The notes under the pieces are model-generated. The model saw only the letters and a list, made by a program, of their open reading frames with translations, was not told where the DNA came from and made no database searches. This document shows, piece after piece, positions 42,789-59,746 of a DNA stretch of 64,000 nt (its first letter is position 1; each line of letters opens with the position of its first letter). Source of the stretch: Prevotella melaninogenica (lineage in GTDB: Bacteria > Bacteroidota > Bacteroidia > Bacteroidales > Bacteroidaceae); assembly GCF_018127965.1 (NCBI RefSeq), contig NZ_CP072349.1, positions 1,430,001 to 1,494,000 of the forward strand, given 5' to 3'. A program made the translations under genes and the position numbers.

Positions 42789-42818
42789 TGAATTTAATCA
42801 GTAACAGGTTATAAAACC

Positions 42819-42986
42819 TTATGGAAGGCTGATAGCCTCACTTGGGCAAACTGATGCACAAGTACCACACTCAGTACAAGCGTCTGCATCAATTTTATAG
42901 ATATCACCCTCAGAGATAGCCTCTACTGGACATTCGTCGATACATGTACCACAAGCGATACAATCATTACCAATTACGTAAGCCAT
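42819..42986 (-). CDS. 2[4Fe-4S] ferredoxin
   Basis: 55 residues (MAYVIGNDCIACGTCIDECP onward). Two complete cluster motifs CxxCxxCxxxCP: C9-C12-C15-C19 (CIACGTCIDECP) and C38-C41-C44-C48 (CTECGTCASVCP). A clostridial-type electron carrier, likely partner of pyruvate:ferredoxin oxidoreductase and hydrogenase in an anaerobe. Single gene with a -7 box TAACTTTG at 43058-43065 (reverse strand) about 70 nt upstream and a GC-rich terminator. Too short for ordinary length filters. Confidence 0.95.
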   Translation of the reverse strand: MAYVIGNDCIACGTCIDECPVEAISEGDIYKIDADACTECGTCASVCPSEAISLP

Positions 42987-43057
42987 AATATAAATAATTT
43001 ATAATGTTAATAATGTTCTTGTATTACAAATAGGCTCAATACCTAAATTTGATGATG

Positions 43058-43065
43058 CAAAGTTA
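43058..43065 (-). promoter_or_regulatory. -7 box (TAACTTTG) for ferredoxin
   Basis: Reverse-strand consensus match 71 nt before the ATG. The remaining 43066-43340 stretch shows only a weak TACGTTTG (43323-43330) 10 nt before the porT ATG. Confidence 0.5.
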
Positions 43066-43340
43066 GAAATATTTTTTTAAATACCTAAACATATTGATAA
43101 AAATTACAAATATTTAGACGGCATAAAAATAAAAAACACGAAATATTCTATATGTTAACTTACTGATAAATTGACCATTACATAAACTCTTGGAACAATT
43201 ATAAAAGACAAATCTTCCTCTTTTTGAGTAAAACCTCCTCACCACTCTCTACCTAAAAAAGATGAGAAGCCGTAAAACTCAGACGACATCTTCATTAATA
43301 TAGACAATAAAACCAAGAGAAATACGTTTGAAGATTAATT

Positions 43341-44087
43341 ATGAAAAGAATTTTAGTAGCCCTCACCCTATTGGCTTCCGTGCTGACAAGCCATGCACAG
43401 GAACGAAGAGTACAGAACCGTCCCTATACGGATCTGCGTGAATTCCATTTCGGAGTGCTCGTTGGTACACATCTGCAAGACCTTGAACTTAATAATGTTG
43501 GACCACAGATGGTCGACCTTGATGATGGCAATGGAGTAGTTCAGAAGATTGTTTCTGCCGATCAAGACCGTTGGGATGCTGGATTCACTGTGGGTGTATT
43601 GGGTGAGTTACGCCTCAACTCTACCTTTCAGTTGCGCATGGCGCCAGCTATGTACTTTGGCACCCGACATCTGACTTTCCGTAATATCACAGCCCTTAAC
43701 GCACAAGGAGAGCCTACAGAGCAGGTACAAGAACTCAAAACAGCATACGTTTCTTGCGCTTTCGACCTCATTGCAGCTGCTCCACGCTTTAACAACCATC
43801 GCCCTTACGTGATGTTAGGACTGAATCCTATGCTCAACCTCTCAGGTAAGGACAATGATTATATCAAGCTCAAACGTAGCGATGTCTTTGTAGAAGTAGG
43901 ACTTGGATGTGATTTCTACCTCCCTTATTTCAAGCTACGTCCAGAATTGAAGTTCATGTACAACCTTACAAACAGTCTTGACAAGAGTCATGCAAAGAAC
44001 CTCCAAGACAAGAATATGCTCATGTACACCAACTCTGTCAATGAAACACGTGCAAAGATGATAGCGCTCACTTTCTACTTCGAGTAA
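43341..44087 (+). CDS. porT: PorT-family outer-membrane beta-barrel protein
   Basis: 248 residues. Signal peptide (about 1-19, SHAQ). The rest is alternating beta strands of an eight-stranded barrel: LREFHFGVLVGTHLQDLEL, RWDAGFTVGVLGELRLNSTF, QLRMAPAMYFGTRHLTF, YVSCAFDLIAAAPRFNNHRP, YVMLGLNPMLNLSGKD, DVFVEVGLGCDFYLPYFKL, ending with Phe/Glu as outer-membrane proteins do. PorT of Porphyromonas gingivalis is needed for type IX secretion. Length and the PYVMLGLNP / DYIKLKR segments fit; other PorT-like porins are the alternative. Single gene with a strong terminator. Confidence 0.8.
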   Translation: MKRILVALTLLASVLTSHAQERRVQNRPYTDLREFHFGVLVGTHLQDLELNNVGPQMVDLDDGNGVVQKIVSADQDRWDAGFTVGVLGELRLNSTFQLRMAPAMYFGTRHLTFRNITALNAQGEPTEQVQELKTAYVSCAFDLIAAAPRFNNHRPYVMLGLNPMLNLSGKDNDYIKLKRSDVFVEVGLGCDFYLPYFKLRPELKFMYNLTNSLDKSHAKNLQDKNMLMYTNSVNETRAKMIALTFYFE

Positions 44088-44161
44088 ATCTTTTATTTGC
44101 CAAGCAATTAGATATGGCATAAAAGATTGATAACGAAGAAAGACTTATCGAAAGCAAACAG

Positions 44162-44209
44162 AATCTATGCAATTTTGGAGTTCAACTTCAAAATTGCATA
44201 GATTTTTTT
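44162..44209 (+). terminator. Terminator of porT
   Basis: Perfect 16-bp stem AATCTATGCAATTTTG (44162-44177) with 44189-44204, followed by T-run. The loop is GAGTTCAACTT. Confidence 0.9.
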
Positions 44210-44248
44210 ATTAAAAACACGCTTTTCACTTGTACGTACGTTCTTTTT

Positions 44249-44283
44249 TATGTATTTTTGGAGTGCTACTTCAAAATTACATA
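44249..44283 (+). repeat. Second hairpin resembling the porT terminator
   Basis: TATGTATTTTTGGAG ... CTTCAAAATTACATA copies the layout of 44166-44201 (TATGCAATTTTGGAG ... CTTCAAAATTGCATA) with several changes, as if duplicated. No U-run after it. Confidence 0.5.
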
Positions 44284-44466
44284 GGTTAGATTTATAAAAC
44301 CTCAATTCCGCAGCATTATTCTTTGCGATTTACTTTTATATATTGAAGTGACATTTTGGTATTTATCCATTGATTTGGGACTTTTCTGGGGTTCTTGGTT
44401 CTTGCATAGGCATAAAATCCCCACCCAAACCCAATGGGGAATATGATAACCACAAAGAAATACTGT

Positions 44467-45640
44467 TTATTCAAGGAATACTTCAGAGTAGTAGGTTTTA
44501 TTTGTATATAGGTTCAGAACGTTCTGCCTTCCCGTTCTCACTCATTTTGCTGGTACGCTGACAAAATGCAGGATAGAGGCTTTCAATCTGCTTGTCTTCT
44601 TCAGCGGCTTGACCTTTTCGCTGATATGACGGACGAGATAGAGATAGAAGTTCTTCAGCATGGCAGTAACCATCATGAAAACCATGTTCTCAGCCATAAA
44701 GGAAAATGGCAGATGTGACCTCCAAAGTCATTGTTCTGTATGTCGAAGTTCTTTTCACTTGCCCCACGCTCATTATAAAATGTAATGATGTCTTTCTCGG
44801 TAGACACCCAGTCATTGGTGAGGATACAGCGGTATGTGTATATTACTACGAACATATCCGTCCGTTGCTTGCCATCCTTGTCTTTCAAAGGACTACGCTG
44901 TACGACAAGTCTGTATGACTTTCCTTCTATCAAGCTGTCCATGCTGATGGATGTGACATCGCATTTCTCATAGCCAATCTCAATGTTTTTCCATTCCTTC
45001 AACTGTTGGAAATTCTCGTAGCGACTGCCGCAGTTGGCAGCACGAATGTAGAACGTGTTGCAGCGCTGCTCTACGGTTTGTATGATTTCCCTTGAGAACG
45101 ACCCGCAGTCAGCACGGAAACGCTCTATTACCACACCAAGTTCTGAGGTTACACGGTCCATTATGCGACGGAGCGTGTCTTCTTGATGGTATCTCACATT
45201 GGTGTTTCCGTCACGGTTTTCACCTCCGACTATGATTCCCCCAATGGAGGCCCAACCAGGAAAATAGCCAAAATTCTGCTTGTAAGAATACTTTGCATCG
45301 AACTTGTGGGCTGGAACAAACTGGTGGTCAAAGTCCAGGTCAACATGACTGCCCACCTTTATAAGCCCCATTCTCCGTATCATCCGTAAAAGTAAGGTAT
45401 TCAGCTTCTCTGCCGTGTTGAAACTATACGACTTGCCGGAGGTCTCGCTCTTATAGACAGTATTTTCCTCGGCAAGCTCCTTTAGTCCGCGCCCCACAGT
45501 GTCGGCACCAGGTAATAGCGTATTAGGTCTCTGCCTGAAATGCCCTATAAGCGCATTGATGTCCTCAAGGCAATCTCCACCACAAAGGTAGCTGAAGAAG
45601 AGAGCCGAAAATACTTCCATGGCTGAATGCCTTGCCGCTA
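44467..45640 (-). pseudogene. IS1380 transposase, C-terminal part with frameshift and stop
   Basis: Reads from the internal segment AARHSAMEVFSALFFSYLCG through the DDE-region sequences VPAHKFDAKYSYKQNFGYFP, RFRADCGSFSREIIQTVEQR and FYNERGASEKNFDIQNNDFG. There one base is missing (about 44720) and the frame changes; it continues as LPFSFMAENMVFMMVTAMLK one frame over. A TGA then replaces Trp in VPAKW at about 44545, and the frame finally ends VLNLYTNKTYYSEVFLE. N-terminal residues are absent here but present in the 58-kb fragment. Not functional. Confidence 0.88.
45306..45640. repeat. 335-bp direct repeat flanking the island, left copy
   Basis: Near-identical to 58062-58398 in the same orientation; differences noticed are C/T and A/G substitutions and a 2-nt AG insertion in the right copy. 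Both copies are the same internal IS1380 segment. Recombination between them would release a circle of about 12.8 kb and rebuild one IS copy. Confidence 0.9.
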
Positions 45641-45720
45641 TCACTCCAAATACTGTTAAGCTCCAGTGTTTTCCTTCTCTTTTGTTATGAGTGTGTCAAA
45701 ATAGATATATTCTCTTTTTG

Positions 45721-46404
45721 GTACGCTCGGCATGAGCATTGTCTAATGGGTGTAAGTCCCGAGTAAGCCCTAATAGCGGGAATTACATAGCCAACGGCAA
45801 GGGTGTTCATCGTGAGGTGAAATCTGAAGGAAGCCAGTGGCAAACATCTGACCTAACGTACAGAAACTTCATATGAGGCATATGACCGTGGATGAGATTG
45901 CTAAACAAATCAACGTCTCATAGCTATTCGGAACGGTTGGTGGAGTTTTCTTGAGCGAAGCGAAAAAATGAAGTAGATATAAGATGGAAAGACAATGCCC
46001 TTATCCGAGGAGATCTCACGGACATGACGATTCGTTTCCTTAACGTAACTCATAGAGCAAAACTTGTCGTGAGAAGTCAGCAGATGCCATAGTACCTAAG
46101 GCACGTGTGCCTATGGGGAAGGGCTGAATCGGGCAGTGCAATAGTAAATGATTGCTACCCTGCGATTTTGTTTGTAACCAGATGTCCGAATGGGACTCTC
46201 TATTCGTACGATAGGACGGAATCCGAAAATAGAATAGAAGTGGTCGTACTCAAAGGGATAGCTTAAAACAACTTGCCACACATCGTGAGATGAGAAAACC
46301 CGAAACCGCTGTATGCGGAACCGCATATACGGTGGTGTGGGAGGTCGGTAAACGTGAAAACAGGAGATAAACACGCTATGATTAAGCGTTTACCTCCTAC
46401 TTGA
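45721..46404 (+). mobile_element. ORF-less group II intron
   Basis: Begins GTACGCTCGGCATGAGC (near the GUGYG 5' rule). Domain I landmarks follow: TGGGTGTAAGTCCCG, GGGAATTACATAGCCAACGG, GAAATCTGAAGGAAGCC, and the typical CGTGAGAAGTCAGCAGATGC. Domain V is seen at 46304-46337 (ACCGCTGTATGCGG, loop, CCGCATATACGGTGGT). Domain VI pairs GGTCGGTAAACG with CGTTTACCTCC (46343-46398) and ends near TTGAT. Domain IV is only about 200 nt and holds no reverse transcriptase; a short frame ending VVVLKGIA may be a remnant. It therefore needs a maturase in trans. Boundaries are good to a few nucleotides. Confidence 0.85.
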
Positions 46405-46530
46405 TTGCATTGTGCAACACAGATCCGCAAAGTCTTCAGAAGCTACTGGTACTCGAGTAGAGACAGTTCGCGAAATGGGACTTAGTGTCAGTTCCAATTT
46501 GGAAAGTTGATTATCGTTATAACCCAATAG

Positions 46531-49500
46531 TTACGACTGTATGTTCCTCCGCGAGTATTCGGCTGGTGACATTCCAAAAGTTTGGTTGAAGCACTTGGCA
46601 AAATAGCTCTGCGTAGAGAAGCCAACCATATACATTACTTCAGACACAGCGAAACGACCTTGCTTTAGAAACACTGCTGCCCGCTGCATTCTCATCTGGC
46701 GAATATAATTTACCGGTGTAAGTCCTGTGACCGCTTTAATCCGTCGATAGATAAGTTTCGTACCATATCCCGTCAGTTGGGTCAACAGTTGCACATTGAG
46801 GTTTGCATCAGCCAAATGTTCTTCAATCATTGCTGTCACAGCTTTCACTACGACATCCTCATCATTGACATCAAGAGTTATAAAGCCTTTTTCTGATTTT
46901 TTTGGATTGTCTCCACCAGTATTCTCAGTGTTGACTTTAAGTTTCGCTGAGTCATCAGAATGAGAATTATCAGAACATGACTCGTGTCGGTCCACTTTAT
47001 ATCCTAATTTTATAATAAAAGTAGCAAATCCATCTTCGGACTCATCTAACGACACAACAGCTCCCATTATGCGAGCACGCTGACTCATAAGTGTAAGATG
47101 ACTCTCCCCATAAGACATAAACGCAAAGTGTCGTTTATCAATCGACAAGACCAACTTCTCTATATCAAGTCGAAGCACAGCATTTCCATCTTTCTCTTCA
47201 GTAGAGAGCACCGCATTACCTTTAACAAGCGTATCGTCATCAACGAACTTCGTAATAGCATCCAGTAAACCAAGTATTGCTACCACGTCTACCTCAGTCA
47301 TTAACCCAAGTTTACCAGCTGAAAAAGACATTCTGGTTCCGCGTCCCGTATCGTGGTAATCGGACACTACTAACTGGCATAGATCCGTCAAGTCAAGCCT
47401 ATGCATGACCGTTTTGTTCGTATTGTTGGCTGCTGGTAACGGCAAGTCCAAAGCCTCAGAAGCCATCTGGCATATCGCTGTTCCATTACGGCGTATAATG
47501 TTGATGTCGTCTTCTTGTTTACCATGAAACTGAGATTGAAGATTAAAAACAGAAGCAAGGACCGATGCTGCTGACATTTTCAGTTTCTCCGACAACGTAG
47601 CGAAGAACTCTGCGCGTCTCGCACTTTGTTCCATTGCATCATTACGAGCCTTTCGCTCACGCTGCAACTCGCGCCGTATCCATACAAAACGCACAGCCCA
47701 TGATATCAAAGACAGGAACAAAAGTACATAGATCGTTTTAGCCCACCACGTGAGATACCATGGAGGAAGGATTGTCACCTTTAGACTGTATATTTTTTTA
47801 GATGGTCTCCCTTGACCATCCACCACACTTACACGAAGTCGGTAACTACCATGGGGAAGACCATTGAACGCTACCTGCAGCGTTCCTGCAGGCATGAGCG
47901 TCCATTGCTCCCCTACGCCTTCCATCAGGTAGGCGTATCGTGCTGCTAACCGACCACATTGCGGATTATCGGAGAAGAGGAGCTTGAAGTTGTTCTCATT
48001 ACTGTGAAGAATTATCTTACCATCATTTTCAAGATATTGCCCTGCTTCATTCATACACATCTGCTGCCCATTAACCTCTATTCCGGTGAGTTGCAGGTAA
48101 CTGTGGTCGGCAGTAGCTAAATTCTCTGTACTGACAGTCATCAGCACGTCTTCACCACCAAGTATCACCCCTTTATGCCTCTTACCGGCATGGTCGGTCC
48201 AAGACAACGGTGAGGCCATTGAAAAAGCATTCATGGTGTTAAGAGAGAAAGCTTTGCTGGATCCGTCAGGGCGCAGAATACAGACATCTTTGTTGGTCGC
48301 AATCCATAGTGCACCATCTTCAGTGCCGAGCGTTACCGGGAACAGACCACGGTCTACCATGGAAAAAGTATGGCGTGATTTTATATCACCGTTGGCAAAG
48401 CGCACCACCTTTCCAACCATGGTTACCCACACCGAGCCTCCTGCATCAGCTATCACTTTATCGACAGAGCTCTCTTTCATAGCGTGGGTGACGTGCAGTG
48501 TGGCAACATCAATACGGTCGACTCCTCCACTGTAAGCCGCAGCCCAAACTCGTCCTTGCCTGTCAATGGCAAGACTTCCAATATTAACGCCTATCAGTGA
48601 AGGGCCAAGATGTGCATCAGCCCTCACAAGACCTTGACTGACAAGGAGCCGACGCCGATCAATGATGAATATTCCTCCGGCATAGGCAGATACCCAACAC
48701 CGTTTATTCCTATCCTCAACGATATCGTATGCCCAAGCAGCATTATATTGTCCAGTGCCATCGGTAAGCAACACATTACGAGTCGTGCCATTTCGTGGGT
48801 CAATGATAAAAAGTCCATGATCGGTACACGCTATGATGGTACCATCAGACATACGATGTAACTTTCGTATGCGATTGTGTGATATATTCCAACGTGAATC
48901 ACCCTGTCGATACCATTTTGAGACTTTCCATCCCTGTGCACTGCGGTGCATATTTATCAATCCGTTGTCACCTCCTACCCACAATGACATACCATCAGCA
49001 TCGGACAACAATGTTCCAAACGTATTGCCATCACCCCTGCCGGTGATAGCAGAAAGACTCCAGCAACGAAATGGCTCATGGGAACGATGTACAGACACCC
49101 CACGGTCTGTACCGACAAGAAGATTATTCCACTTATCTTTGGTCAGCGACCATACAACATTACTTGCCAGTGAATTGTCAACACGTATGTCTTGGCATAC
49201 GTGCACAGCATGCTGCATGTTGTCAACCATGTATAATCCATCATCGGTTCCTATATACAGTATGTCATTTACTTGACATAGGGCTTTGATGGAGTTAGAA
49301 TGTAACGTAGATAACTCTTCCAGTGAATGTCCATCATAATGAAACAAAGCGCCCTCTGTTCCAATCCAATAACCACCATCTTTTGCATGAGCCATAGCAT
49401 TGATCAAAGGACGGTTTGGCTGGATACCCACATTGATGGCTCTCACGCGTTTGTTGTGGATGATATATAATCCATGGAGTGTGCCTACAAGAAGCCCATA

Positions 49501-50016
49501 AGGAGTGTCAAGCAACGAATAGACTTGAGGTAAGTTGCGTACAAGGGGGTGCGTGCTGCCAGTCTGTATGTCGTAAACGTCCACGCCATCGGCACCTCCA
49601 ACCATTATCTTTGTTCCTTTCTGCAACAGAGCACGTACACTGCGAACACCACCCATAGAAGGAAGCACACGTAGATTTCGCCGTTCCGCTATACGCAGAC
49701 CGCCATCAGTACCCATCAGTACCTTGTCACCAGCTAACATCACTGTATGGATGATGGTTTGAAGATCTGTACCTCTAAACAGAGTGTAATCACGATAGCC
49801 ATCATAAACGACAAGTCCTTTATCAGTGCCCATCCATATTTGTCCGTCGGCATCTGTTGTCATACACAATACTACCGAAGACGCATTTGGCTTGAAGTTT
49901 ACAAAAGAAAGAAAGGTTATGGACTCTTCAACTTTAGCTTGAATGACACCATTTCCTATGAGTATAGATAATAGAAAAAGTAGAATAGATACAAGTTTTA
50001 GTTTTGATGCTATCAT
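46531..50016 (-). CDS. Membrane-spanning AraC-type PUL regulator (HTCS-like, degenerate kinase, no receiver)
   Basis: 1,161 residues; standard hybrid two-component regulators have about 1,300-1,400. Signal peptide/anchor (about 1-27). About 13-14 propeller blades with WMGTDKGL / LYIGTDDGL motifs form two sensor beta-propellers (about 30-640), then a Y_Y_Y-type domain and a membrane helix (about 757-780). The dimerisation helix reads RRAEFFATLSEKLKMS where histidine kinases have SHE: the His is absent. The ATPase part lacks N and G boxes. No receiver domain precedes the C-terminal AraC helix-turn-helix (about 1050-1158: LLTQLTGYGTKLIYRRIKAV, GFSTQSYFAKCFNQTFGMSP). Ligand sensing probably acts directly on DNA binding. 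Adjacent to the PUL it should control. Confidence 0.9.
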   Translation of the reverse strand: MIASKLKLVSILLFLLSILIGNGVIQAKVEESITFLSFVNFKPNASSVVLCMTTDADGQIWMGTDKGLVVYDGYRDYTLFRGTDLQTIIHTVMLAGDKVLMGTDGGLRIAERRNLRVLPSMGGVRSVRALLQKGTKIMVGGADGVDVYDIQTGSTHPLVRNLPQVYSLLDTPYGLLVGTLHGLYIIHNKRVRAINVGIQPNRPLINAMAHAKDGGYWIGTEGALFHYDGHSLEELSTLHSNSIKALCQVNDILYIGTDDGLYMVDNMQHAVHVCQDIRVDNSLASNVVWSLTKDKWNNLLVGTDRGVSVHRSHEPFRCWSLSAITGRGDGNTFGTLLSDADGMSLWVGGDNGLINMHRSAQGWKVSKWYRQGDSRWNISHNRIRKLHRMSDGTIIACTDHGLFIIDPRNGTTRNVLLTDGTGQYNAAWAYDIVEDRNKRCWVSAYAGGIFIIDRRRLLVSQGLVRADAHLGPSLIGVNIGSLAIDRQGRVWAAAYSGGVDRIDVATLHVTHAMKESSVDKVIADAGGSVWVTMVGKVVRFANGDIKSRHTFSMVDRGLFPVTLGTEDGALWIATNKDVCILRPDGSSKAFSLNTMNAFSMASPLSWTDHAGKRHKGVILGGEDVLMTVSTENLATADHSYLQLTGIEVNGQQMCMNEAGQYLENDGKIILHSNENNFKLLFSDNPQCGRLAARYAYLMEGVGEQWTLMPAGTLQVAFNGLPHGSYRLRVSVVDGQGRPSKKIYSLKVTILPPWYLTWWAKTIYVLLFLSLISWAVRFVWIRRELQRERKARNDAMEQSARRAEFFATLSEKLKMSAASVLASVFNLQSQFHGKQEDDINIIRRNGTAICQMASEALDLPLPAANNTNKTVMHRLDLTDLCQLVVSDYHDTGRGTRMSFSAGKLGLMTEVDVVAILGLLDAITKFVDDDTLVKGNAVLSTEEKDGNAVLRLDIEKLVLSIDKRHFAFMSYGESHLTLMSQRARIMGAVVSLDESEDGFATFIIKLGYKVDRHESCSDNSHSDDSAKLKVNTENTGGDNPKKSEKGFITLDVNDEDVVVKAVTAMIEEHLADANLNVQLLTQLTGYGTKLIYRRIKAVTGLTPVNYIRQMRMQRAAVFLKQGRFAVSEVMYMVGFSTQSYFAKCFNQTFGMSPAEYSRRNIQS

Positions 50017-50133
50017 TGGATAATACTTACTTTGTCACTGCAAAAATAGCAATTTTATCTGTACAAGAAGCATTATCCACTAAAATATTAATACGGACAG
50101 GCTACTTTCCTGTAGTCTGTCCGCATAGAATCA

Positions 50134-51105
50134 TTATTGAGCTTGATAAACTCTTACATAATCAACTTCGTAATGCAATGGAAAATGGGCAACATCTGGT
50201 TCGCCACCATTGCTTCCTATTGCAAGATTGAGCAAGATATATTGCCCGAAGCCGTCACGTGTATTAGAGAAAGGATTGTCGTAATTGCCATCGACACCGT
50301 TGTTGCGGGTCTTGGAGAGGTCCACCTCGTTGAGCAGTTCTCCGTCGAGATAGAGACGGATGAAGTGCTCATCCCAGTCCATTCTCCAAACATGGAACTT
50401 AGAAGTCCAGTCGGCATCCTTTGCTGTGAAATGGGTGAATGGCGTGACGCTCTCGTCCCATACTGCCGAGTATCTCTTGTCTGATCCCCAGCAGGCATTA
50501 GCCAGTATGGATGGTGCACCGTTTTTGATATAGAACTCCATGAGGTCTACTTCTCCATTCTGCGGCCACTCTCCCTGATTGCCCAACGTCCAGATGGCAG
50601 GCCAAGTACCACGTGTGACGGGAATGCGTGCACGCACTTCCATACGTCCATACCTGAAGTGGAAACTCTTCTCAGTTGTCAGGCACGAAGAGGTGTACTG
50701 TGCCTCTGGACGAGAGCAACGCCAATCAGTGGATTGAGAATTATAGTTAGGATTATGAACTTTCTCCTTCCGACCTTCTATCACTAACAATCCGTTGCTT
50801 ACCGATGCGTTGTCGGGTTGATACCATTGTAATTCCTCGTTCCTCACGAAGCCCTGTTCGTAAGTCCATTCGTCAGAGGGTCTCCCATCAATATTAAACT
50901 CATCGTTCCAGATCAGCTGGTAACCTTGATACTGCGTAGGGATGGCATTTTTGGAAAGAGCTTTCTTTGAAGCGTCATCGTCAGCCGTGTTGCCTGATGT
51001 CTCCATGGGCACCTGCTTTCCTGTTGGCTCTTCTTCAGCCGATGACTTATGGCATTGGCAGAAGAAAGCCAAAGCCAAGAGGGAAAGAAAATAAGATACT
51101 TTCAT
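50134..51105 (-). CDS. Glycoside hydrolase family 16 lipoprotein
   Basis: 323 residues from ATG 51105 (MKVSYFLSLLALAFFCQC); the upstream GTG frame overlaps susD. Lipoprotein-type leader (Cys about 17 or 19), acidic linker, then a GH16 beta-sandwich (about 60-323): YQLIWNDEFNIDGRPSDEWT, RYGRMEVRARIPVTRGTWPA, the catalytic GEVDLMEF (two Glu either side of Asp, ExDxxE, about 183-190), DEHFIRLYLDGELLNEVDL, HYEVDYVRVYQ. Closest in style to laminarinase/beta-glucanase subfamilies, but beta-galactan cleavage also occurs in GH16. Co-transcribed after SusD (17-nt gap). Substrate unresolved. Confidence 0.9.
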   Translation of the reverse strand: MKVSYFLSLLALAFFCQCHKSSAEEEPTGKQVPMETSGNTADDDASKKALSKNAIPTQYQGYQLIWNDEFNIDGRPSDEWTYEQGFVRNEELQWYQPDNASVSNGLLVIEGRKEKVHNPNYNSQSTDWRCSRPEAQYTSSCLTTEKSFHFRYGRMEVRARIPVTRGTWPAIWTLGNQGEWPQNGEVDLMEFYIKNGAPSILANACWGSDKRYSAVWDESVTPFTHFTAKDADWTSKFHVWRMDWDEHFIRLYLDGELLNEVDLSKTRNNGVDGNYDNPFSNTRDGFGQYILLNLAIGSNGGEPDVAHFPLHYEVDYVRVYQAQ

Positions 51106-51122
51106 ATTTACCAGTATTGTTA

Positions 51123-52727
51123 CTATTTCCACAAATCGTTTTGTTCAAGATCGTGATTGGAGTCAACATCGGGTTGTGGAATAGGCCATACATACTCCTT
51201 CTCACCACGATAGTTGCGGTACTCGTATGGGAATTTATAAGTCTTTGCCTCATTGTTCACGCGGTCAACAGCATCCTTGAGCGTGTGCCAGCGATAGAGA
51301 TCGAATAGTCGTAGCCCTTCAAAGGCTGTCTCCACACGACGTTCATGACGAACGATTGCCCGAAGCTGGTCTTGCGACAAGCCAGTACCCTCTACATTCT
51401 CCACGCTGGGCATCTTGGCACGTGCACGCACTTGATTGATTAAACGCACAGCCTCGTCAAAGTTAGTCCCTTTCTCTATATCAGCTTCTGCCAGCGAGAG
51501 CAGCACTTCAGCATAGCGAACGATATAGAAGTCCTGACCAGCATCCCACGAATCGGCACTGGAGAGTGAGGGGTTAAAATACTTCATCACATAGATTGTG
51601 GAGTAAGAATTAGCAGAACCACCATAGAGTACTGACTTACCATTCCATGACATGCCTGGTACGAAGAGCGTAGCTTTCAGTCGGGGGTCACGGTTCTCAT
51701 AACGTTGAGTATTGACATTGTCCCAGTAGTTGGGTGAACCATCAGGATAGAAGTCGATGACGCGCTTGTCTTGACAGGGTTTGCCATTGGTCATATAGAA
51801 CGCATCAGCAAGATCAATCGTACCATTCATAGCCTCCAACGGACTACCCCAGTGTCCACCCAGACCACATCCTTCATTCTTACCAGGCCCCTGATAGCTT
51901 ACGGACATAATGATTTCGGGACAGTTCTCATTGTCTTTGGTGAAGAGCTGGGAGTAGTCGTTGAAGAGACTGTACTTATTAAGTGCAATCACTTGATGAT
52001 AAGCATCAATAGCATCGTCCCACATTCCATTGTAGAGTGCAGTACGTCCGAGTATGCTTAGTGCTGCTCCACGCGTTATGCGGTTGGTCTCAGGTGCATC
52101 CACAGGCAGGACAGTTGCCGCAGCTTTCAAGTCTGCCATAATCGCCTTTACGATAGTAGCTCGGTCGGTCTTTGGTGTGTTCGCCTCGTTCATGGTTTGT
52201 GGAGCAGTGATAAACGGCACATCGTGATAAGTCATAGTGAGGTTAAGATACATCAGTGCCCTTATCACCTTAGCCTCAGCGATATATTGCTCTCGTGTAG
52301 CATCGCTGATACCAGTGCGTCCAACATTAGCTATCAACGAATTGCAACGTTTGATAGCTTCATAGTTGGCTATCCACCACTGCTCTACCAGACGTGAAGA
52401 GCTTGAATGTATGCCGTTGGCAATGTCCCAACCATTCATCCATCCTGACCAGTTGAAGTGCCCACCGTTATCAGTCATACAATCCATGTTGAGCGGACCG
52501 CAACCGTCCCATTTGCTTTGGTTGGTGGCATCATTGTAGAGGAAAGGGTTCTGAAGGGCGTCATAGACAGCGGTCAATCCCTCATGAGCATCGTCAGCAG
52601 TCTGCCAGAAGTTGCCCGATGAGGAAGCAGAGGGTGAGGATTTCTGCAGGAAGTCGTCAGAGCATCCTGAAGTGAGCATAGCTCCAGAGAGGAGCGTTGC
52701 GATGATGAAAATCTTATAACGTTTCAT
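51123..52727 (-). CDS. SusD/RagB-family nutrient-binding lipoprotein
   Basis: 534 residues. Lipobox LTSGC (about 18-22) followed by SDDFLQKSSPSASSSGNFWQ, the usual SusD opening. Helical TPR-like core: AYVDALQ-type first helices, EAKVIRALMYLNLTMTYHDV (about 150-169), ALSILGRTALYNGMWDDAID, and the C-terminal FYIVRYAEVLLSLAEADIEK / AVRLINQVRARAKMP / RHERRVETAFEGLRLFDLYR set. Lies on the cell surface as the lid of the SusC channel. 14 nt after susC and 17 nt before GH16. Ligand cannot be read from the sequence. Confidence 0.95.
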   Translation of the reverse strand: MKRYKIFIIATLLSGAMLTSGCSDDFLQKSSPSASSSGNFWQTADDAHEGLTAVYDALQNPFLYNDATNQSKWDGCGPLNMDCMTDNGGHFNWSGWMNGWDIANGIHSSSSRLVEQWWIANYEAIKRCNSLIANVGRTGISDATREQYIAEAKVIRALMYLNLTMTYHDVPFITAPQTMNEANTPKTDRATIVKAIMADLKAAATVLPVDAPETNRITRGAALSILGRTALYNGMWDDAIDAYHQVIALNKYSLFNDYSQLFTKDNENCPEIIMSVSYQGPGKNEGCGLGGHWGSPLEAMNGTIDLADAFYMTNGKPCQDKRVIDFYPDGSPNYWDNVNTQRYENRDPRLKATLFVPGMSWNGKSVLYGGSANSYSTIYVMKYFNPSLSSADSWDAGQDFYIVRYAEVLLSLAEADIEKGTNFDEAVRLINQVRARAKMPSVENVEGTGLSQDQLRAIVRHERRVETAFEGLRLFDLYRWHTLKDAVDRVNNEAKTYKFPYEYRNYRGEKEYVWPIPQPDVDSNHDLEQNDLWK

Positions 52728-52741
52728 TGTTTTCTGATAAT

Positions 52742-55700
52742 TTAAAAGTTAATGTTCAAACCGAAGGAGATTGACTTAGTATTAGGGTGCATATCGCCAC
52801 GCATATCGCTGCTAACCTTCTCGGGGTCTTTGTTCTCAAGAGAGGTGAGCGTAATCAGGTTAGAGCCTTGTAGATAGACACGCGCCTGCCGAATACCAGC
52901 TTGACGGAGCAATGGTAGGTCGAAGGTGTAACCCAGTTCGATGTTCTTAAGACGCAGATAGCTCGCATCGTCAAGCCAAAACGTTGAGTAACATTCGTTG
53001 AAGTTGTTGCCCAGACGTGGCATGCTGCCATTAGGATTGTCGGTACTCCATCGATCGAGCCAGCGTGTTGTAATGTTTCCACCATTGGTGATTGTGGCTT
53101 GTTCCCAGCTGAAACGATCCACACCACTCACTCCCTGCCAAAGCATGGAGAAGTCAAGATGACGCCAAGAGAATGCAGCGTTGATAGAATAGGTGAGCTT
53201 AGGGAAGGGGTTACCAATGATTACACGGTCGCCATCATCAATCTTGCCATCATCGTTTACATCCTCATACATGATGTCGCCAAGTTTCGGATCCAAGCCA
53301 TTGGGCTTGATGATTTCACCTTTTGAATTGGTGCGCTTCAAGTCATCCTCCGTGCGATAGATACCTATAGCACGCAGTCCATAATACGAACCAATAGGGT
53401 TACCCTCACGGTTGATGGTGTTGCCAGAGATATTGTCGATGCTGTGGTTGTCAATGATTCTGTTTTGAACCGTTGCCAGACTACCGCCCACTTGCCACAT
53501 AAAATCACCAGCATGGTCCCGATAGTTGGCTGAGAGTTCAATGCCTCGGTTCCTAACCTTTCCTGCGTTCTGCGTAGGTGCAGCGAGATTACCAAGGAAA
53601 GTAGTAGGCATGGTGAGCTGCATAAGGATGTCAGAGGTCATTTTGTTATAATAGTCGAATGTCATTGAGATACGACTGCCCCAGAAGTAAGCATCCAATC
53701 CGATGTCGGTCATGGTGGTTGTCTCCCAGCGTATGTCGCTGTTGGCTACCATGTTCTCAGCCATACCAATGGATGAGGTATTACCGAAATAGTAATTATA
53801 ATTGGCTGCCATCGTGGCTTCGTAAGCATAATCGCCAATCTCTTGGTTACCTAACTTACCCCAAGAGGCGCGCAACTTGAGATAATTCACTACCTTATTC
53901 TCTGGGAAGAACTTCTCATTGGTAACAATCCAACCAGCGGAAACAGAGGGGAACGTAGCATAACGATGCGACTTTGGCATACGTGAAGAACCGTCATGAC
54001 GGATGTTGAACTCTGCCAAATAGCGGTCGTCATAGTTATAAGCGACGCGACTGAAGAACGATTGCAACGAATACTCCGTAGCATTGCCCCAAGCCTGAGG
54101 ATTACGTGTGCCAGCATCGAGCTGATAGAGGTTATCTGTGGCAAAACCTTGCTTACTGCCGTTGATGGATCCATTGTGGTTTTCCTGAATGGAATGCCCA
54201 AGCAACGCATTGACATGGTGAAGACCGAAACGCTGATCGTATGTTAGGATGTTCTCATTAACATAGCCATAGTCAATCTTATGGTTGTTCGTGAGCGAAT
54301 TGTCATCGCTCTTATAGATGAGGTTGCCCTCTGCGTTATACTTACGTGACCGCTTGCTATACCATGAGGCATCATAGATATACAACTTATAAGCCAGACT
54401 GCTACGGAACTTCAACCCTTTCACAAGGTTTACTTCTCCATAGACATTACCGTCAAAACGCCAGCCTGTCTGCTTGTTATGCGCCTGCGACATCATTTCA
54501 ATAGGGTTCTTGAACTTTGAGAAACTGATGTCTGAACCATCTTGGTTGCCATAATGCCCATTGGAGTACATGACAGGAACAGTAGGACGAGTAAACCATG
54601 TGAGCGAACGCATCAGTCCGTTGTCTCCGCCCATACCGCCATTGGCAGTGATATTCTCTTTCGAACCAGAGAGATTCAGTCCTATCCTGAATCTTCCAAG
54701 CTCTGCATCGGTATTGGAACGGAAGTTGAAACGTTCATAGCCCGTATGCTCCATGATGCCTTTCTGCTTTAAGTAGCCAACTGACATCATATAATGGGCT
54801 TTCTTGCTGCCACCACTTACTGACAGACTATGCTGTGTCATCGGAGCTGTGCGAAAGAGTGCATCCCACCAGTCGGTATTGGCAAAATGGTCAGGATCAG
54901 AGCCATCGCGCAGCTTGTCGAGCATTGATTGAGTGTAGGTCTGCGTATTGTTCGACTCGTTATACATCTTTGCCCACTCATAAGAATTGACGTATTTAGG
55001 CTTGATGGTTGCCGATTGTATGGAATAGCTACCGTTATAGCTGATGCTTGGTGCTGTCTCACCACCTCGTTTGGTAGTAACGAGTATCACGCCATTGGCA
55101 GCACGCACACCATAGATAGCTGCCGATGCCGCATCTTTCAGCACTGAGATATTCTCAATGTCGTTGGGCGCTAAGCCTGACAACTGTCCGATAGGGGCTT
55201 CCACACCATCAATGAGTAACATTGGATTGTTGTTACCAAAGGTACCCACACCACGAACTCTTATCTCGGGAGAGTCAGCACCAACCTGACCACCATTGCT
55301 TGTGAGCGTCACACCTGGCAACCGACCCTGAAGCAGTGCTGCCGTGTTGCCAACAGGAATGGAGCTAATCTCTTTGCTTGATACGGAGGCAACAGACCCC
55401 GTGAGGTTAGCTTTCTTCTGTGTACCATAGCCCACAACAACAACTTCATTGATGCTCTGGTCATCAGGAACAAGATGTACGGAGATGTTTCCCGAACCTA
55501 CTTTGGCAGAAGACGCCTTATAGCCGAGATAAGAAACACTAACCTGACCTACATTAGCAGGCACACTGACTGTGAAGTGACCATCAAGGTCGGTGACAGT
55601 GCCATGTGTAGTACCAGGTACTCTCACTGCTGCGCCCACAAGTGGCTCACCATTTTCATCGAGCACAGTTCCCGTCACCGTCTTCTGGCTCTGGGCGAGA

Positions 55701-55786
55701 AGCTGGCTTGGGGTGAGTAGAGCGGTCATCGTTAGCCCCATCATCAATAACTTGGGGTTGACAAGATTAAATAATTTGTTAGTCAT
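52742..55786 (-). CDS. SusC/RagA-family TonB-dependent outer-membrane transporter
   Basis: 1,014 residues. Signal peptide (about 1-32, LLAQ). CarboxypepD-reg-like domain (about 36-112: VTGTVLDENGEPLVGAAVRV), TonB box region NEVVVVGYGTQKKANLTGSV (about 114-133), plug with RGVGTFGNNNPMLLIDGVEA and DIENISVLKDAASAAIYGVR (about 211-230), then a 22-strand barrel ending NTKSISFGLNINF. Typical size for the family. Imports oligosaccharide captured by SusD, powered by TonB-ExbB-ExbD (33-kb operon). No SusE-like gene follows. Confidence 0.96.
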   Translation of the reverse strand: MTNKLFNLVNPKLLMMGLTMTALLTPSQLLAQSQKTVTGTVLDENGEPLVGAAVRVPGTTHGTVTDLDGHFTVSVPANVGQVSVSYLGYKASSAKVGSGNISVHLVPDDQSINEVVVVGYGTQKKANLTGSVASVSSKEISSIPVGNTAALLQGRLPGVTLTSNGGQVGADSPEIRVRGVGTFGNNNPMLLIDGVEAPIGQLSGLAPNDIENISVLKDAASAAIYGVRAANGVILVTTKRGGETAPSISYNGSYSIQSATIKPKYVNSYEWAKMYNESNNTQTYTQSMLDKLRDGSDPDHFANTDWWDALFRTAPMTQHSLSVSGGSKKAHYMMSVGYLKQKGIMEHTGYERFNFRSNTDAELGRFRIGLNLSGSKENITANGGMGGDNGLMRSLTWFTRPTVPVMYSNGHYGNQDGSDISFSKFKNPIEMMSQAHNKQTGWRFDGNVYGEVNLVKGLKFRSSLAYKLYIYDASWYSKRSRKYNAEGNLIYKSDDNSLTNNHKIDYGYVNENILTYDQRFGLHHVNALLGHSIQENHNGSINGSKQGFATDNLYQLDAGTRNPQAWGNATEYSLQSFFSRVAYNYDDRYLAEFNIRHDGSSRMPKSHRYATFPSVSAGWIVTNEKFFPENKVVNYLKLRASWGKLGNQEIGDYAYEATMAANYNYYFGNTSSIGMAENMVANSDIRWETTTMTDIGLDAYFWGSRISMTFDYYNKMTSDILMQLTMPTTFLGNLAAPTQNAGKVRNRGIELSANYRDHAGDFMWQVGGSLATVQNRIIDNHSIDNISGNTINREGNPIGSYYGLRAIGIYRTEDDLKRTNSKGEIIKPNGLDPKLGDIMYEDVNDDGKIDDGDRVIIGNPFPKLTYSINAAFSWRHLDFSMLWQGVSGVDRFSWEQATITNGGNITTRWLDRWSTDNPNGSMPRLGNNFNECYSTFWLDDASYLRLKNIELGYTFDLPLLRQAGIRQARVYLQGSNLITLTSLENKDPEKVSSDMRGDMHPNTKSISFGLNINF

Positions 55787-55899
55787 GTAATTTGATATAT
55801 TGATTTTTAATTCTTAAGTCATCTTCTAAAAAGTCTCCACAAAGGGGAATTTGGCACGTGTCCTAATAAAGATAATTCTTAGAACCTGCCATAAAACGA

Positions 55900-57393
55900 T
55901 TATTGTTTTCCGAAGTCTTTGGCTATTTTCATCCAATTATCTGCCGTATTTATATGATAACGTCTGTCTTGTACGCTGCCGTTTATGACCTCACGACTAC
56001 TCCATGTGGAATCAGAGAGGAAATAGAACTTACCTGTTTGATTACGGCAAAGATAAGTGTTAAGATAATACTTTGTAGATCCTTCTGCTGCTTGATGCAT
56101 AGGAATTATCTGCCAATGTCCGAATCCATCATCAGTAAAGTCTCCTGTTACATACCCTTTAGCAGAAGAACCGACTTTGTACATATCAACCTCAAATGTT
56201 ACCTTAACATTGTAATCTCCATATGCCTCAATAGCAGAGTGAGGAAGAAGGTTATTATTGAAATCAAAGAAAGTAGCATTCTCCCAATTAGAGCCAACCC
56301 CCCAAAGAGTTTTATTTGAAGCGGACACCCAGAATGGTTCCCACACAGAGAATCCTGCACCACCATTATTCATCAGAGCTTCCTTTATCTCTGTAACATA
56401 ATCTTTCTGAAATTGAGGAGATGGTACATCTGGATAACCTGCACACATTTTGCTCATAAGATTATGATTGTTATCATTCCAGGCCCGAGTCCATATTTGG
56501 CTCGTCTCAGCTACAAAAAGACGAGTTCCATATTTATCATGCAATAAAGAAGCAAAATTGCCGAGTTCTGTAGGAGTATAATCTTGCCACTGAGGATAAT
56601 AAGACAAACCCAGTAAGTCGAAGTAATTGAGTCCATACCTTTTGTGCCTGACCAACCAAGTTGCAGCACTACCTGGATCAAGTGCTACATGAAGCATTGT
56701 CTTAATTTGCTTCCCATATTGTTCATTAAAATCTGAAACAGCTTTCAACCCTGCATTAAAAAACTTTACATTCCGAGCATAATTGACCGGTTGAAGATCA
56801 TTGTTGTCTGCCACTATTACATTAAAATTGGTCTCATTACCTATCTGAACTATTACAGGTAAAAGACCAACACTGTTTAGGTGTTCAAGAGTGCGATAAG
56901 TATAATTGTAAACGGAATCTGAAAGCAAAGACGAGTTCTTTACTACTGGTTTCCATGCTGCAGGTACAAGATTTTGTTGTGGATCTGTCCATGTATCGGA
57001 ATAGTGAAAATCAAGCAAAACTTCAAGACCTACAGTCTTGGCACGTTTCATGCTTCGCTCCACATCGTTTAATGTTGAGTAAGAGGTCCATGACGGATTA
57101 TGCCACAATCGAAGACGGACGATATTAGCTCCATAACTACGGAGTAATGTAAATGGATCCACGTCGGAACCATCCTTGTGGTATTTCACACCATTATCTT
57201 CAAGTTCGTTAACATAGGATAAGTCGGCGCCTTGATAAAAAAGATAATCTGTTGCTCTCATTCCTGCTGTAGATGTGGCAGCAGAATGGTTTGCTGATAT
57301 GTCATTTAAATAATTTTCTTGCTCCTGACAACCTGTTGCGAGCATAAATAATAGTGCAAGACTTAAGAATATTAGTCCTTTGTAAAATTTCAT
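55900..57393 (-). CDS. GH53 endo-beta-1,4-galactanase lipoprotein with C-terminal binding-like module
   Basis: 497 residues from ATG 57393 (MKFYKGLIFLSLALLF). Lipobox LATGC (Cys about 22). GH53 barrel about 45-385: YQGADLSYVNELEDNGVKYH, NIVRLRLWHNPSW, LEVLLDFHYSDTWTDPQQN, VIVQIGNETNFNV (acid/base Glu), FVAETSQIWT (nucleophile Glu, in the place of the common ETxYPWT). The last 100 residues (VKVTFEVDMYKVG, then YVTGDFTDDGFGHWQIIPM) form a SusE/CBM-like beta module. The family cuts beta-1,4-galactan of type I arabinogalactan (pectin side chains). First gene of the locus, 113 nt before susC, and surface exposed by inference. Confidence 0.92.
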   Translation of the reverse strand: MKFYKGLIFLSLALLFMLATGCQEQENYLNDISANHSAATSTAGMRATDYLFYQGADLSYVNELEDNGVKYHKDGSDVDPFTLLRSYGANIVRLRLWHNPSWTSYSTLNDVERSMKRAKTVGLEVLLDFHYSDTWTDPQQNLVPAAWKPVVKNSSLLSDSVYNYTYRTLEHLNSVGLLPVIVQIGNETNFNVIVADNNDLQPVNYARNVKFFNAGLKAVSDFNEQYGKQIKTMLHVALDPGSAATWLVRHKRYGLNYFDLLGLSYYPQWQDYTPTELGNFASLLHDKYGTRLFVAETSQIWTRAWNDNNHNLMSKMCAGYPDVPSPQFQKDYVTEIKEALMNNGGAGFSVWEPFWVSASNKTLWGVGSNWENATFFDFNNNLLPHSAIEAYGDYNVKVTFEVDMYKVGSSAKGYVTGDFTDDGFGHWQIIPMHQAAEGSTKYYLNTYLCRNQTGKFYFLSDSTWSSREVINGSVQDRRYHINTADNWMKIAKDFGKQ

Positions 57394-57435
57394 ATTTTTT
57401 TTATTTATGGTAAAACATTGGCTTAATTGCGCTTG

Positions 57436-57517
57436 CAAAGTTAGGCAGAATACATGATGATAGGCATAACAAATCGGACAAATGCTACAACGTTTTGGAC
57501 AAACTTTACATAAACTT
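57436..57517 (-). promoter_or_regulatory. PUL promoter with two 21-bp direct repeats (probable regulator site)
   Basis: Reverse-strand TAACTTTG at 57436-57443, 43 nt before the GH53 ATG. No -33 TTG at normal spacing. Instead two repeats lie just upstream: on the forward strand GGACAA.....ACA begins at 57476 and at 57497, exactly 21 nt apart (on the coding strand TGTA...TTTGTCC twice). Direct repeats two helix turns apart suit an AraC-type activator. Confidence 0.65.
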
Positions 57518-58061
57518 GTAGGTATAAGTCAAGTTGCCATTTGTTAGGTTCATAACTATGTAGCAGTTTTAAGCGATTTTCTCCCATTCTCAGCGTTGAG
57601 CCCATGGAACTGTTATCTGTACTAACTTTTGAGATAGCCCAGCGCTGAAAATGAACATTTTGATCTTTCAACCACGAGAAACACCTCCTCCACAGATAAT
57701 GTTGCACCAGTCTGATTGGCATAAATAATGGCTCGTACGAGAAGTAACTTTCCATACGCTTGAAATTGGGCTCAATATCTCTTCTGTGAATAACGAGCAG
57801 ACAAGGGGGGCTTGGTTACAATTAACTGGAATAGTAACCAAGATAGGAAGAGAAGTACCCAAGATAAAACCGAAAGTAACCAAGATACACTGCCTGAAAA
57901 GGCAATACGTCTAATGGTCAAAAGATAAAGCGAAAGAATCAGTTAAACAGCGGAAATACCATCGTGTTTCTCCAAAGAAAGTCTACAGAGTAGACGTCCA
58001 AGACCAAATTTTGAGAAAAGTGAGAGATTATCGCTACTCATCTTACTTTTAACACTTAAAA
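57518..58061. other. Gene-free region upstream of the PUL, inside the island
   Basis: Contains three 21-nt direct repeats starting 57833, 57854 and 57875 (AGTAACCAAGATA, AGTACCCAAGATA, AGTAACCAAGATA cores); the first core also pairs with TTGGTTAC upstream (57812-57819). A reverse-strand frame of about 100 codons (57441-57755) matches nothing I know and is probably chance. The island ends at 58061. Confidence 0.5.
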
Positions 58062-58525
58062 GTGGGCTGGAACAAACTGGTGGTCAAAGTCTAGGTCAAC
58101 ATGACTGCCCACCTTTATAAGCCCCATTCTCCGTATCATCCGTAAAAGTAAGGTATTCAGCTTCTCTGCCGTGTTGAAACTATACGACTTGCCGGAGGTC
58201 TCGCTCTTATAGACAGTATTTTCCTCGGCAAGCTCCTTTAGTCCGCGCCCCACAGTGTCGGCACCGGGTAATAGCGTATTAGGTCTCTGCCTGAAATGCC
58301 CTATAAGCGCATTGATGTCCTCAAGGCAATCTCCACCACAAAGGTAGCTGAAGAAGAGAGAGCCGAAAATACTTCCATGGCTGAATGCCTTGCCGCTACA
58401 CTTCTACATTTGCCCAATACGGATTCGGTAAGTTTTTCAAAGCCCAACTTTGAGAAAACGTCCATAATGTGATAAATTCCACCGAAAGAAGTGATATTCT
58501 CGTTTTTAATTGCTACCTTTGCCAT
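58062..58525 (-). pseudogene. IS1380 transposase, N-terminal part
   Basis: Starts at ATG 58525 (MAKVAIKNENITSFGGIYHI), continues FSKLGFEKLTESVLGK to AARHSAMEVFSAL. There a 2-nt insertion shifts the frame; the family sequence resumes (GRGLKELAEENTVYKSETSG, DVDLDFDHQFVPAH-type) and is cut at 58062. Complements exactly the part missing from the 44-45-kb fragment. Confidence 0.88.
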
Positions 58526-58658
58526 GTCAGATATTTTATTTGTTTTTTTTGTTGGTAGCACTAAGGTAAGTGAAATTTCTGACATGTCCAAGTGTTTTGA
58601 GAACTTTGTTTCTCAGACACTTGGAGTTCTCACAAGAATTTATGCTGCGGAATTAAGG
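58062..58658 (-). mobile_element. IS1380-family element, 5' part (interrupted copy)
   Basis: Carries the other terminal repeat at 58642-58658 and the target duplication TAAAA at 58659-58663. Includes the transposase start and runs to 58062, where it stops abruptly inside the coding region. The first 337 bp (58062-58398) repeat the left fragment; 58399-58658 (260 bp) is unique to this half. Confidence 0.9.
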
Positions 58659-58711
58659 TAAAATTATTCATTTACTAAATAAGAATCTAAAGTTCATAAA
58701 CTAAAGGAATT

Positions 58712-59044
58712 ATGAGAAAGTCTATTATCCTAATCGTTGCACTCATAGCAAGTTTGAGCATCAGTGCACAAACTAAAGAAAAGCAAGATAGTCTGAACAT
58801 ACCAGTGTTTCTTGTAGATGGAGTTGAGGTACAGAACATCGATAACCTTGACCAAAAAGACATCATTAGTGTGAATGTTATCAAAAACGGTGACTTCAAC
58901 AAGCTATTTTATCCACGTACTGGCGGCGTGATGCTGATTACAACAAAATCAAAAAAATATCTGAAGCCTATCATTCAAAAGTATCAGGAAAATATGAAGA
59001 AAGCAAAGAGTAACAAGAAGCCTGGGCAGATTTACATAAGATAA
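58712..59044 (+). CDS. Small secreted protein resembling a TonB-receptor plug segment
   Basis: 110 residues. Signal peptide (about 1-19, ISAQ). The body IPVFLVDGVEVQNIDNLDQK, DIISVNVIKNGDFNKLFYPR, TGGVMLITTKSK mirrors the plug motif of SusC proteins (LIDGVE...ISVLKDA.A...YG...GVILVTTK) but with no barrel and no CarboxypepD-like domain. A basic tail follows. It could be a free regulatory or binding plug, or a protein of an unrelated fold that shares the motif. Single gene just outside the IS target duplication, followed by a hairpin. Confidence 0.7.
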   Translation: MRKSIILIVALIASLSISAQTKEKQDSLNIPVFLVDGVEVQNIDNLDQKDIISVNVIKNGDFNKLFYPRTGGVMLITTKSKKYLKPIIQKYQENMKKAKSNKKPGQIYIR

Positions 59045-59064
59045 AGGTGCACACAAACACCTTT
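59043..59064 (+). terminator. Hairpin after the plug-like gene
   Basis: AAAGGTG / CACCTTT (59043-59049, 59058-59064) with 8-nt loop, overlapping the stop codon. A second perfect 11-bp inverted repeat (CCAATAGTAGC, 59116-59126 with 59143-59153) lies 50 nt on. Confidence 0.5.
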
Positions 59065-59270
59065 AATAATACGAGAACGCTATTAGACTATAGCTTTTTA
59101 CATCATAACCAACGTCCAATAGTAGCTGGATAATCGTCAACTGCTACTATTGGGATTGGTTCTTATAAATAAACGAGATTGATTACATAAAATTAATACC
59201 ATGCATAAAACAAAATGCAAATAGATACGATGACAGCTTCAACAAACAACTTGACCCTTATCAAATGCTA

Positions 59271-59580
59271 TTTGTAAACTATTTTCACACAACTCAAATC
59301 TAATATATGCTCTTTTGGCTTCTTAAAGACGCCTAATTGACTTGCAAAAGGTGCCCTTTTGAAGTCTTACTAACGCCCTTTTGAAGTCCTATTAAGCACC
59401 TTTTCTTCTACAGTTTTATAACTAATTGATTTTCTGTTGGTTGCAGACATACTCTTCATACGTATTTTTGTTCTTATTTATAGATGTTTTATTTGAAATT
59501 ATGTAATGATTTTTCAAATCCTTATTTGAGTAATTTTCAATATATTAAAAGAAGGGTTTTTCTGTGTCGAAAGATGATAA
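59271..59580 (+). repeat. Family-2 intergenic element, copy F (four 22-nt units plus promoter)
   Basis: Units start at 59309, 59331, 59353 and 59375 (period 22), beginning GCTCTTTTGG, GCCTAATTGA, GCCCTTTTGA and GCCCTTTTGA, then CACCTTTTCT at 59397. Same flanks as copies D and E (TTTGTAAACTATTTTCACAC before; TCTGTGTC near the end). No gene downstream on this strand for 2 kb. Confidence 0.8.
59441..59470 (+). promoter_or_regulatory. Promoter inside element F
   Basis: TTG (59441-59443), 19 nt, TATTTTTG (59463-59470), equivalent in position to that of copy E. Confidence 0.6.
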
Positions 59581-59660
59581 TAGAATAGACAGTGAACAGT
59601 TTTAGCTATGTATTCGCTTAATGATTAACTTTCAATAACGTTTTAGGAAGTATAAAAGAC

Positions 59661-59713
59661 TGTGGGCTACATCAATAAGATTGCTATTGGCAATCATACT
59701 GATACAGCCCACA
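59661..59713 (-). terminator. Terminator of the 5'-nucleotidase operon
   Basis: TGTGGGCT / AGCCCACA outer stem with inner GATTGC / GCAATC; TCTTTTAT follows on the reverse strand. Confidence 0.7.
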
Positions 59714-59746
59714 TTATTTATATATAGGTCTTATAGATTGAAAGAC

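Follow-up and report, generated by a model that had tools for sequence, protein, structure and literature searches.

In a 64,000-nt stretch of Prevotella melaninogenica DNA (hereafter the window; bases 1,430,001-1,494,000 of contig 1 in a 3.2-Mb genome of two contigs), a polysaccharide utilization locus (PUL) is enclosed in an island of 14,359 bp (44300-58658 in window coordinates) that ends on each side in a fragment of an insertion sequence (IS) of the IS1380 family, the two fragments having the same orientation. It is strongly supported that the island represents one IS1380-type insertion, not two. As to its construction, the favoured reading, held at about even confidence, is that of an IS1380-ended unit with the build of a composite (pseudo-compound) transposon and with trimmed inner ends. 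Since both flanking transposase genes are broken, the island is at present unable to move by itself, and it is described here as a putative non-autonomous derivative of such a transposon, not as a working member.

Island ends and IS1380 fragments

The features that delimit the island are listed below, with positions in the window.

44295-44299, no strand: left TAAAA, one copy of the 5-bp target duplication (from the sequence; present as a single copy at the empty site of genome G145)
44300-45640, minus strand: left IS1380 fragment, corresponding to IS positions 1-1345 of a full-length copy from the same genome
45306-45640, no strand: left copy of the direct repeat common to both IS1380 fragments (from alignment)
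58062-58398, no strand: right copy of the direct repeat (from alignment)
58062-58658, minus strand: right IS1380 fragment, corresponding to IS positions 1007-1603 and comprising the transposase start and the right terminal repeat
58659-58663, no strand: right TAAAA, the other copy of the 5-bp target duplication (from the sequence and the empty-site comparison with G145)

Opposite IS1380 terminal repeats occupied the outer ends of the island, 44300 and 58658, and matched those in the full-length IS1380 copies of this genome. The initial annotation of the window had reported this layout of two fragments in one direction, opposite outer repeats and TAAAA outside, and it held in the sequence and in the alignment with a full-length copy. 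Target duplications in the IS1380 family are short, 4-5 bp; all five of the other full-length copies in the genome were flanked by perfect, mutually different 5-bp duplications, and the flanking pair of TAAAA is thus the expected footprint. The chance of two random 5-mers agreeing was 0.0045 with the local base composition and 0.0013 with that of the whole window.

The segment said to be shared by the inner ends was also present, with 335 bp in the left copy and 337 bp in the right, but as an inexact direct repeat: the alignment of 337 columns contained two mismatches and one 2-bp indel (99.4% identity), compared with 97-98% for the next nearest IS1380 copies.

Both transposase pieces were truncated and carried frameshifting indels. 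The left frame, on the minus strand, was frameshifted and without its 5′ part, and its open frame scored 171.7 bits with NF033539 (IS1380 transposase), under the cut-off of 180, whereas a full-length IS1380 relative from P. nigrescens scored 260.3 bits against this cut-off. Relative to five full-length copies, the left piece had deletions of 1 bp and 2 bp within the frame and the right piece an insertion of 2 bp.

Empty sites in related genomes

The upstream flank was searched in 299 genomes of the genus, and a second search covered 153 near-complete genomes. The closest match other than the window was G145, whose alignments to 41845-44299 and 58659-60163 overlapped by exactly five bases in that genome, both flanks being joined through a single TAAAA with no island between them. 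The site was empty in G409 as well, where the two flank alignments overlapped by four bases. A comparison of this kind had been proposed in the initial annotation, whose claim of one insertion is borne out, since the joining of the flanks through one TAAAA in G145 indicates that 44300-58658 came in as a unit. Among the relatives' loci returned by the upstream-flank search, 8 of 29 were compared: the flanking regions lay within about 0.5 kb of each other, with no island, in seven, four of which also lacked 58664-59746, the downstream match beginning only at about 59750, while in the eighth (L040) the downstream region was not syntenic. In all, the island was missing from the 10 relatives' loci compared (these eight and two more).

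Two separate IS1380 insertions that came to flank a resident PUL and were truncated later are hardly credible. That the outer pieces resemble different IS1380 lineages (see below) would suit such a history, but G145 has a single TAAAA and nothing else between the flanks, none of the 10 loci holds the island, and the shared TAAAA would have to be ascribed to chance (0.0045 locally). Independent insertions beside a PUL already in place were therefore rejected on the empty sites of G145 and G409.

In G347, which also had no island, about 1.3 kb of other sequence stood between 44283 and 58694. On inspection by eye, this DNA (L248, approximately 3135-4456) resembles an AAA-type ATPase gene. It occupies the intergenic position taken by the island in the window, where insertions may be frequent.

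Ancestry of the outer IS1380 pieces

The pieces were compared with 27 full-length IS1380 copies, taking as informative the sites at which one own-genome copy and one G408 copy differed. The left-only piece agreed with the G408 type at 66 of 89 such sites, with the own-genome type at 21 and with neither at 2; each copy of the shared segment agreed with G408 at 14 and with the own genome at 4; and the right-only piece agreed with the own genome at 13 of 15 sites and with G408 at 2. The contrast between the left and right pieces gave a Fisher p of 6e-6, a value that is overstated because the sites are linked. A change of lineage coinciding with the end of the shared segment, such as a crossover might leave, was not found; the switch fell at about 58413-58481, inside the right piece and beyond the shared segment. 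Trees of the three parts were discordant for several IS1380 copies, which suggests that mosaic copies are common.

Inner joints

Three features lie at the inner joints between the IS1380 fragments and the PUL.

45641-45720, no strand: 80 bp between the left IS1380 fragment and the intron (one weak 29-bp match only)
45721-46406, plus strand: short group II intron, 686 bp (Rfam RF02001 and RF01998; RF00029 at 33.2 bits against a cut-off of 40)
57920-58061, minus strand: relic of a transposase start, 142 bp, cut short at either side and directly adjoining the right IS1380 fragment

For the 80-bp stretch, the only match in the loci compared, apart from the window's own copies, was the weak one of 29 bp, with E of 0.006, at loci L197 and L180. 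In the intron, the 3′ domain (RF00029) was under the curated cut-off and no plus-strand frame of at least 80 amino acids was present; at its length the intron is too short for a reverse-transcriptase frame. It was 92% identical over its length to an intron of G426. The transposase relic is probably derived from the IS4 family, and a homologous frame in G077 scored 55.5 bits with an IS4 transposase model, under the cut-off of 250; the relic was 94% identical to repeated elements of G422 and 93% identical to those of G410. Because G422, G410 and G426 also bear this type of IS1380, the surroundings of the PUL resemble mobile elements of IS1380-bearing relatives; the PUL itself does not. The intron, the relic and the frameshifts in both transposase pieces, together with a GH53 gene inside the PUL (see below), are features beyond those of the initial annotation.

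Members of the same group II intron family, approximately 700 bp long, were observed in many genomes of the genus, some with several copies, and at C1:1650770-1651476 (L030) in the own genome.

Assembly of the island

Composite (class I) transposons are bounded by insertion sequences of the same family. Like them, the island has two IS copies of one family, here both partial, round an unrelated cargo, with outer terminal repeats, one target duplication round the whole unit and an empty site in relatives; unlike them, it carries a glycan-use cargo of the SusCD type, its IS copies are both truncated inwardly and their transposase frames are broken, leaving no flanking IS with an intact transposase. 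In the reading favoured here, two related IS1380 copies would have come to flank the locus, possibly through a circle with one IS that rejoined another IS1380; ordinary IS1380 transposition, acting on the outer ends, would then have brought the whole unit to the site; and the inner ends of both copies would have been trimmed before or after entry. In favour of this reading stand the empty sites, the 5-bp duplications round all five full-length copies, the matching outer repeats, the unlike lineages of the left and right pieces, the foreign nature of the cargo and the spread of an insert-bearing IS1380 in G309 (see below). Further movement is conceivable only in trans and would require transposase from other IS1380 copies, two of the five full-length copies in the genome having an open frame of 433-455 amino acids. 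Recombination between the 337-bp repeats, by which the island could be lost, is predicted to release 12,756 bp, which agrees with the circle of about 12.8 kb foreseen in the initial annotation. The searches of genus genomes returned no second copy of the unit.

Several points weigh against a composite-like origin. Both inner ends are missing, so that two truncations must be assumed, and neither inner joint has an IS1380 terminal repeat. No relative with two full-length IS1380 copies round this PUL was found, and among 20 regions mapped, chosen among the matches listed, no other IS1380 unit combined a cargo above 10 kb with a matching duplication. The remaining three full-length copies of the genome had, respectively, an altered frame end, a frame of 343 amino acids and no frame of 200 amino acids. 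In other genomes, a matching 5-bp duplication was seen in only 8 of 26 IS1380 rows, several of which repeat one copy, and duplications of the IS1380 family are often lost or absent.

The initial annotation had proposed a different route, in which a circle carrying the PUL and an IS segment, here of 337 bp, integrated by one homologous crossover into an IS1380 resident at TAAAA. This is possible, though doubtful. The geometry fits exactly, with the shared segment at both inner ends and one target duplication, the two copies of the segment are closer to each other than to any next nearest IS1380 copy (99.4% versus 97-98%), and circles with one IS are at least recorded in assemblies, as in the 3,815-bp P. 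nigrescens record described below. The inner overlap itself is non-diagnostic, as it can be reasoned that two truncated direct copies overlap in about half of cases, and the donor circle would need an IS already cut at both sides. Moreover, a uniform resident predicts a single lineage, whereas the left-only piece resembles the G408 type and the right-only piece the copies of the own genome. Outer pieces of unlike lineage thus argue against the simplest form of a split resident, which they weaken rather than refute because mosaic copies seem common and a mosaic resident is possible. A carrier for the PUL also failed to appear among plasmids or viruses: SusC was below 60% identity in all 167 plasmid records with a match, and the exact 31-base pattern of the left junction was without match in viral contigs, the PUL DNA itself not having been searched in plasmids, phages or viral contigs. 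A lone resident IS1380 might instead have been invaded by illegitimate joining or template switching, 337 bp being copied twice as foreign DNA was inserted, for example by transformation. Such an event appears quite unlikely. The inner joints, adjoining a doubly truncated transposase relic and the 80-bp stretch, would resemble products of illegitimate joining, and the 99.4% identity suggests that both copies of the segment came from one IS, but these processes do not usually give long duplications with 12-kb inserts, and only a resident that was mosaic beforehand would account for the mixed ancestry of the outer pieces.

IS1380 elements with internal DNA and possible one-IS circles

In G309, nine loci (L187-L194 and L202) were examined, and eight had within IS1380 one and the same insert of about 597 bp, identically bordered and with a duplication of 10 bp; the ninth, L202, had a related insert whose right border differed. 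One of the nine, L190, had a matching 5-bp target duplication, TTCAT. These copies show that an IS1380 with internal foreign DNA has spread within G309. By eye, the insert has short inverted ends.

The plasmid record NZ_CP133469.1 (L208) of P. nigrescens DSM 13386, circular and 3,815 bp long, has one full-length IS1380 and one S9 peptidase gene as its only two annotated features, with no replication gene annotated. Contig C6 of G415 was identical to it (100%) over all 3,815 bases. In G415 (L254-L257 and L265) the chromosomal peptidase gene adjoins one IS1380 copy, while in the circle the other IS end is joined to the far side of the gene, and slight differences between the circle and the chromosome were present at the IS borders. 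Relatives of the S9 peptidase gene were found in 17 of 17 genomes searched. The record may stem from a genuine circle, from a tandem duplication or from an artefact of assembly. It would be rather unlikely, though conceivable, that IS1380 serves as a general packer of DNA in Prevotella, in which circles with one IS and adjacent chromosomal or foreign DNA would form, rejoin resident copies and build units bounded by target duplications. The island would then be one such unit with a whole PUL from a RUG137-like relative; a 12.8-kb circle could still be released from it, and IS1380 copies of the same genome that have open frames could mobilize it in trans.

Shortened IS1380 copies in which particular internal deletions recur were noted across several genomes (L186, L195-L201 and L203-L205), the recurrent joints, in IS positions, being 1-591 to 1377-1603, 1-172 to 1418-1603 and 1-160 to 1313-1603; most of the short derivatives mapped were without matching duplications. 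G336:C118, considered as an IS1380 pair, was discarded, as its right part mapped as a separate short element.

The polysaccharide utilization locus and its origin

The cargo consists of the following features, with amino acid identities referring to the PUL of uncultured Prevotella RUG137 (G091).

46531-50016, minus strand: regulator with Reg_prop, Y_Y_Y and AraC-type helix-turn-helix domains; 71% identity in RUG137
50134-51132, minus strand: GH16 glycoside hydrolase, laminarinase-like (domain and structure matches); 80% identity in RUG137
51123-52727, minus strand: SusD-type glycan-binding lipoprotein (domain); 91% identity in RUG137
52742-55786, minus strand: SusC-type TonB-dependent transporter (TIGR04056, 967.5 bits against a cut-off of 368); 92% identity in RUG137
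55900-57438, minus strand: gene for a GH53 endo-beta-1,4-galactanase-like protein (domain and structure matches); absent from the RUG137 PUL
57427-57506, minus strand: region conserved with the sequence directly upstream of RUG137 susC (86%)

An adjacent susC/susD pair thus stands with glycoside hydrolases and a regulator, as in a PUL. The structures matched by GH16 included laminarinase-type ones and those matched by GH53 were endo-beta-1,4-galactanases; the regulator is presumably of the hybrid two-component type.

Searches for the PUL in the genus scored two, or up to six, stretches per genome, many of which were intron matches, so that a PUL copy in an intron-bearing genome could be missed. 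Among the matches listed for 398 genus genomes, the own genome included, only G091 matched most of the PUL, with 77% DNA identity over 47042-55811 and a further match at 46544-46872; 49 further genomes, with as many as six stretches scored in each, added only PUL-gene stretches of 64-68% identity at E up to 1e-40. As an independent check, a SusD scan of named genomes, which may omit records very near the window's own, returned 33 loci, the best being RUG137 with 91% protein identity and the next 64%. RUG137 is taken to be of rumen origin, judging from its RUG name. Within the 32 kb compared, RUG137 had neither an IS1380 nor a GH53 match, and the genes neighbouring its PUL look by eye like ordinary chromosomal genes. 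The GC content was 45-48% in the PUL genes of the window, 38-39% in the flanks and 56% in the G091 stretch. The core of the cargo, encoding SusC, SusD, GH16 and the regulator, is foreign, judged by its composition and matches.

The GH53 gene, at 38.4% GC, is host-like and differs in this from the other PUL genes. It sits in a 1.6-kb stretch (55812-57426), absent in RUG137, between the conserved upstream region and susC; since the sequence upstream of RUG137 susC recurs beyond GH53, the gene lies within a stretch that RUG137 lacks. The placement of this low-GC gene shows a PUL in the course of being rebuilt. A DNA search with GH53 in 396 genus genomes, including the own genome, gave one partial match of 67% identity beside the window itself, at E up to 1e-20.

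Comparison with known systems

It is on conjugative elements that mobile PULs are best known. The seven island frames searched against Pfam yielded no recognisable integrase, relaxase or conjugation gene, the remaining frames being short or overlapping and unsearched; this accords with the lack of integrase and conjugation genes reported in the initial annotation, and from these seven frames the island does not qualify as an integrative conjugative or mobilizable element. In gut Bacteroidetes, 47 loci with SusC and SusD are carried by mobile elements and resemble the island in having a SusCD locus as horizontally moved cargo; in the passages available from that report, IS1380 is not named as a PUL carrier and the element types of the 47 loci are unstated (PMC6907783). 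Among the open-licence papers listed on IS1380, PULs, composite transposons and Prevotella, none announced an IS1380-bounded PUL. A PUL bounded only by IS ends and a clean duplication would mean that a feeding locus can be taken from one species to another by an abundant IS, and the island points to a way for such gene clusters to move with no transfer genes of their own. Given the 337-bp repeats and the empty site, gain and loss of the island can be tested directly.

We know of no targeted conservative reaction of the IS26 kind in IS1380, and homologous recombination would thus have to serve if a circle were joined to a resident copy. In IS26, a member of another family, translocatable units resemble the circle proposed in the initial annotation, as a one-IS circle comes to lie beside a resident IS26 and gives an IS-cargo-IS unit (PMC4894685). 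Composite transposons bounded by IS1380 may already have been described in the literature. ISEc9 is ISEcp1, of the IS1380 family, and ISEcp1 uses one IS together with an alternative outer end that is not an IS end. The island, unlike an ISEcp1-type one-IS transposition unit, has two outer ends that are both genuine IS1380 ends, of opposite type. About 36 kb was gained through ISEc9-mediated transposition during natural transformation (PMC12116815). As may be true of the island, a large foreign stretch moved in that case by transposition of the IS1380 type, during transformation and not conjugation.

Other repeats in the window

The comparison with relatives' flanks also drew attention to a dispersed repeat of about 330-390 bp, its copies about 77% alike, at 12472-12866, 28566-28899 and approximately 59236-59627.

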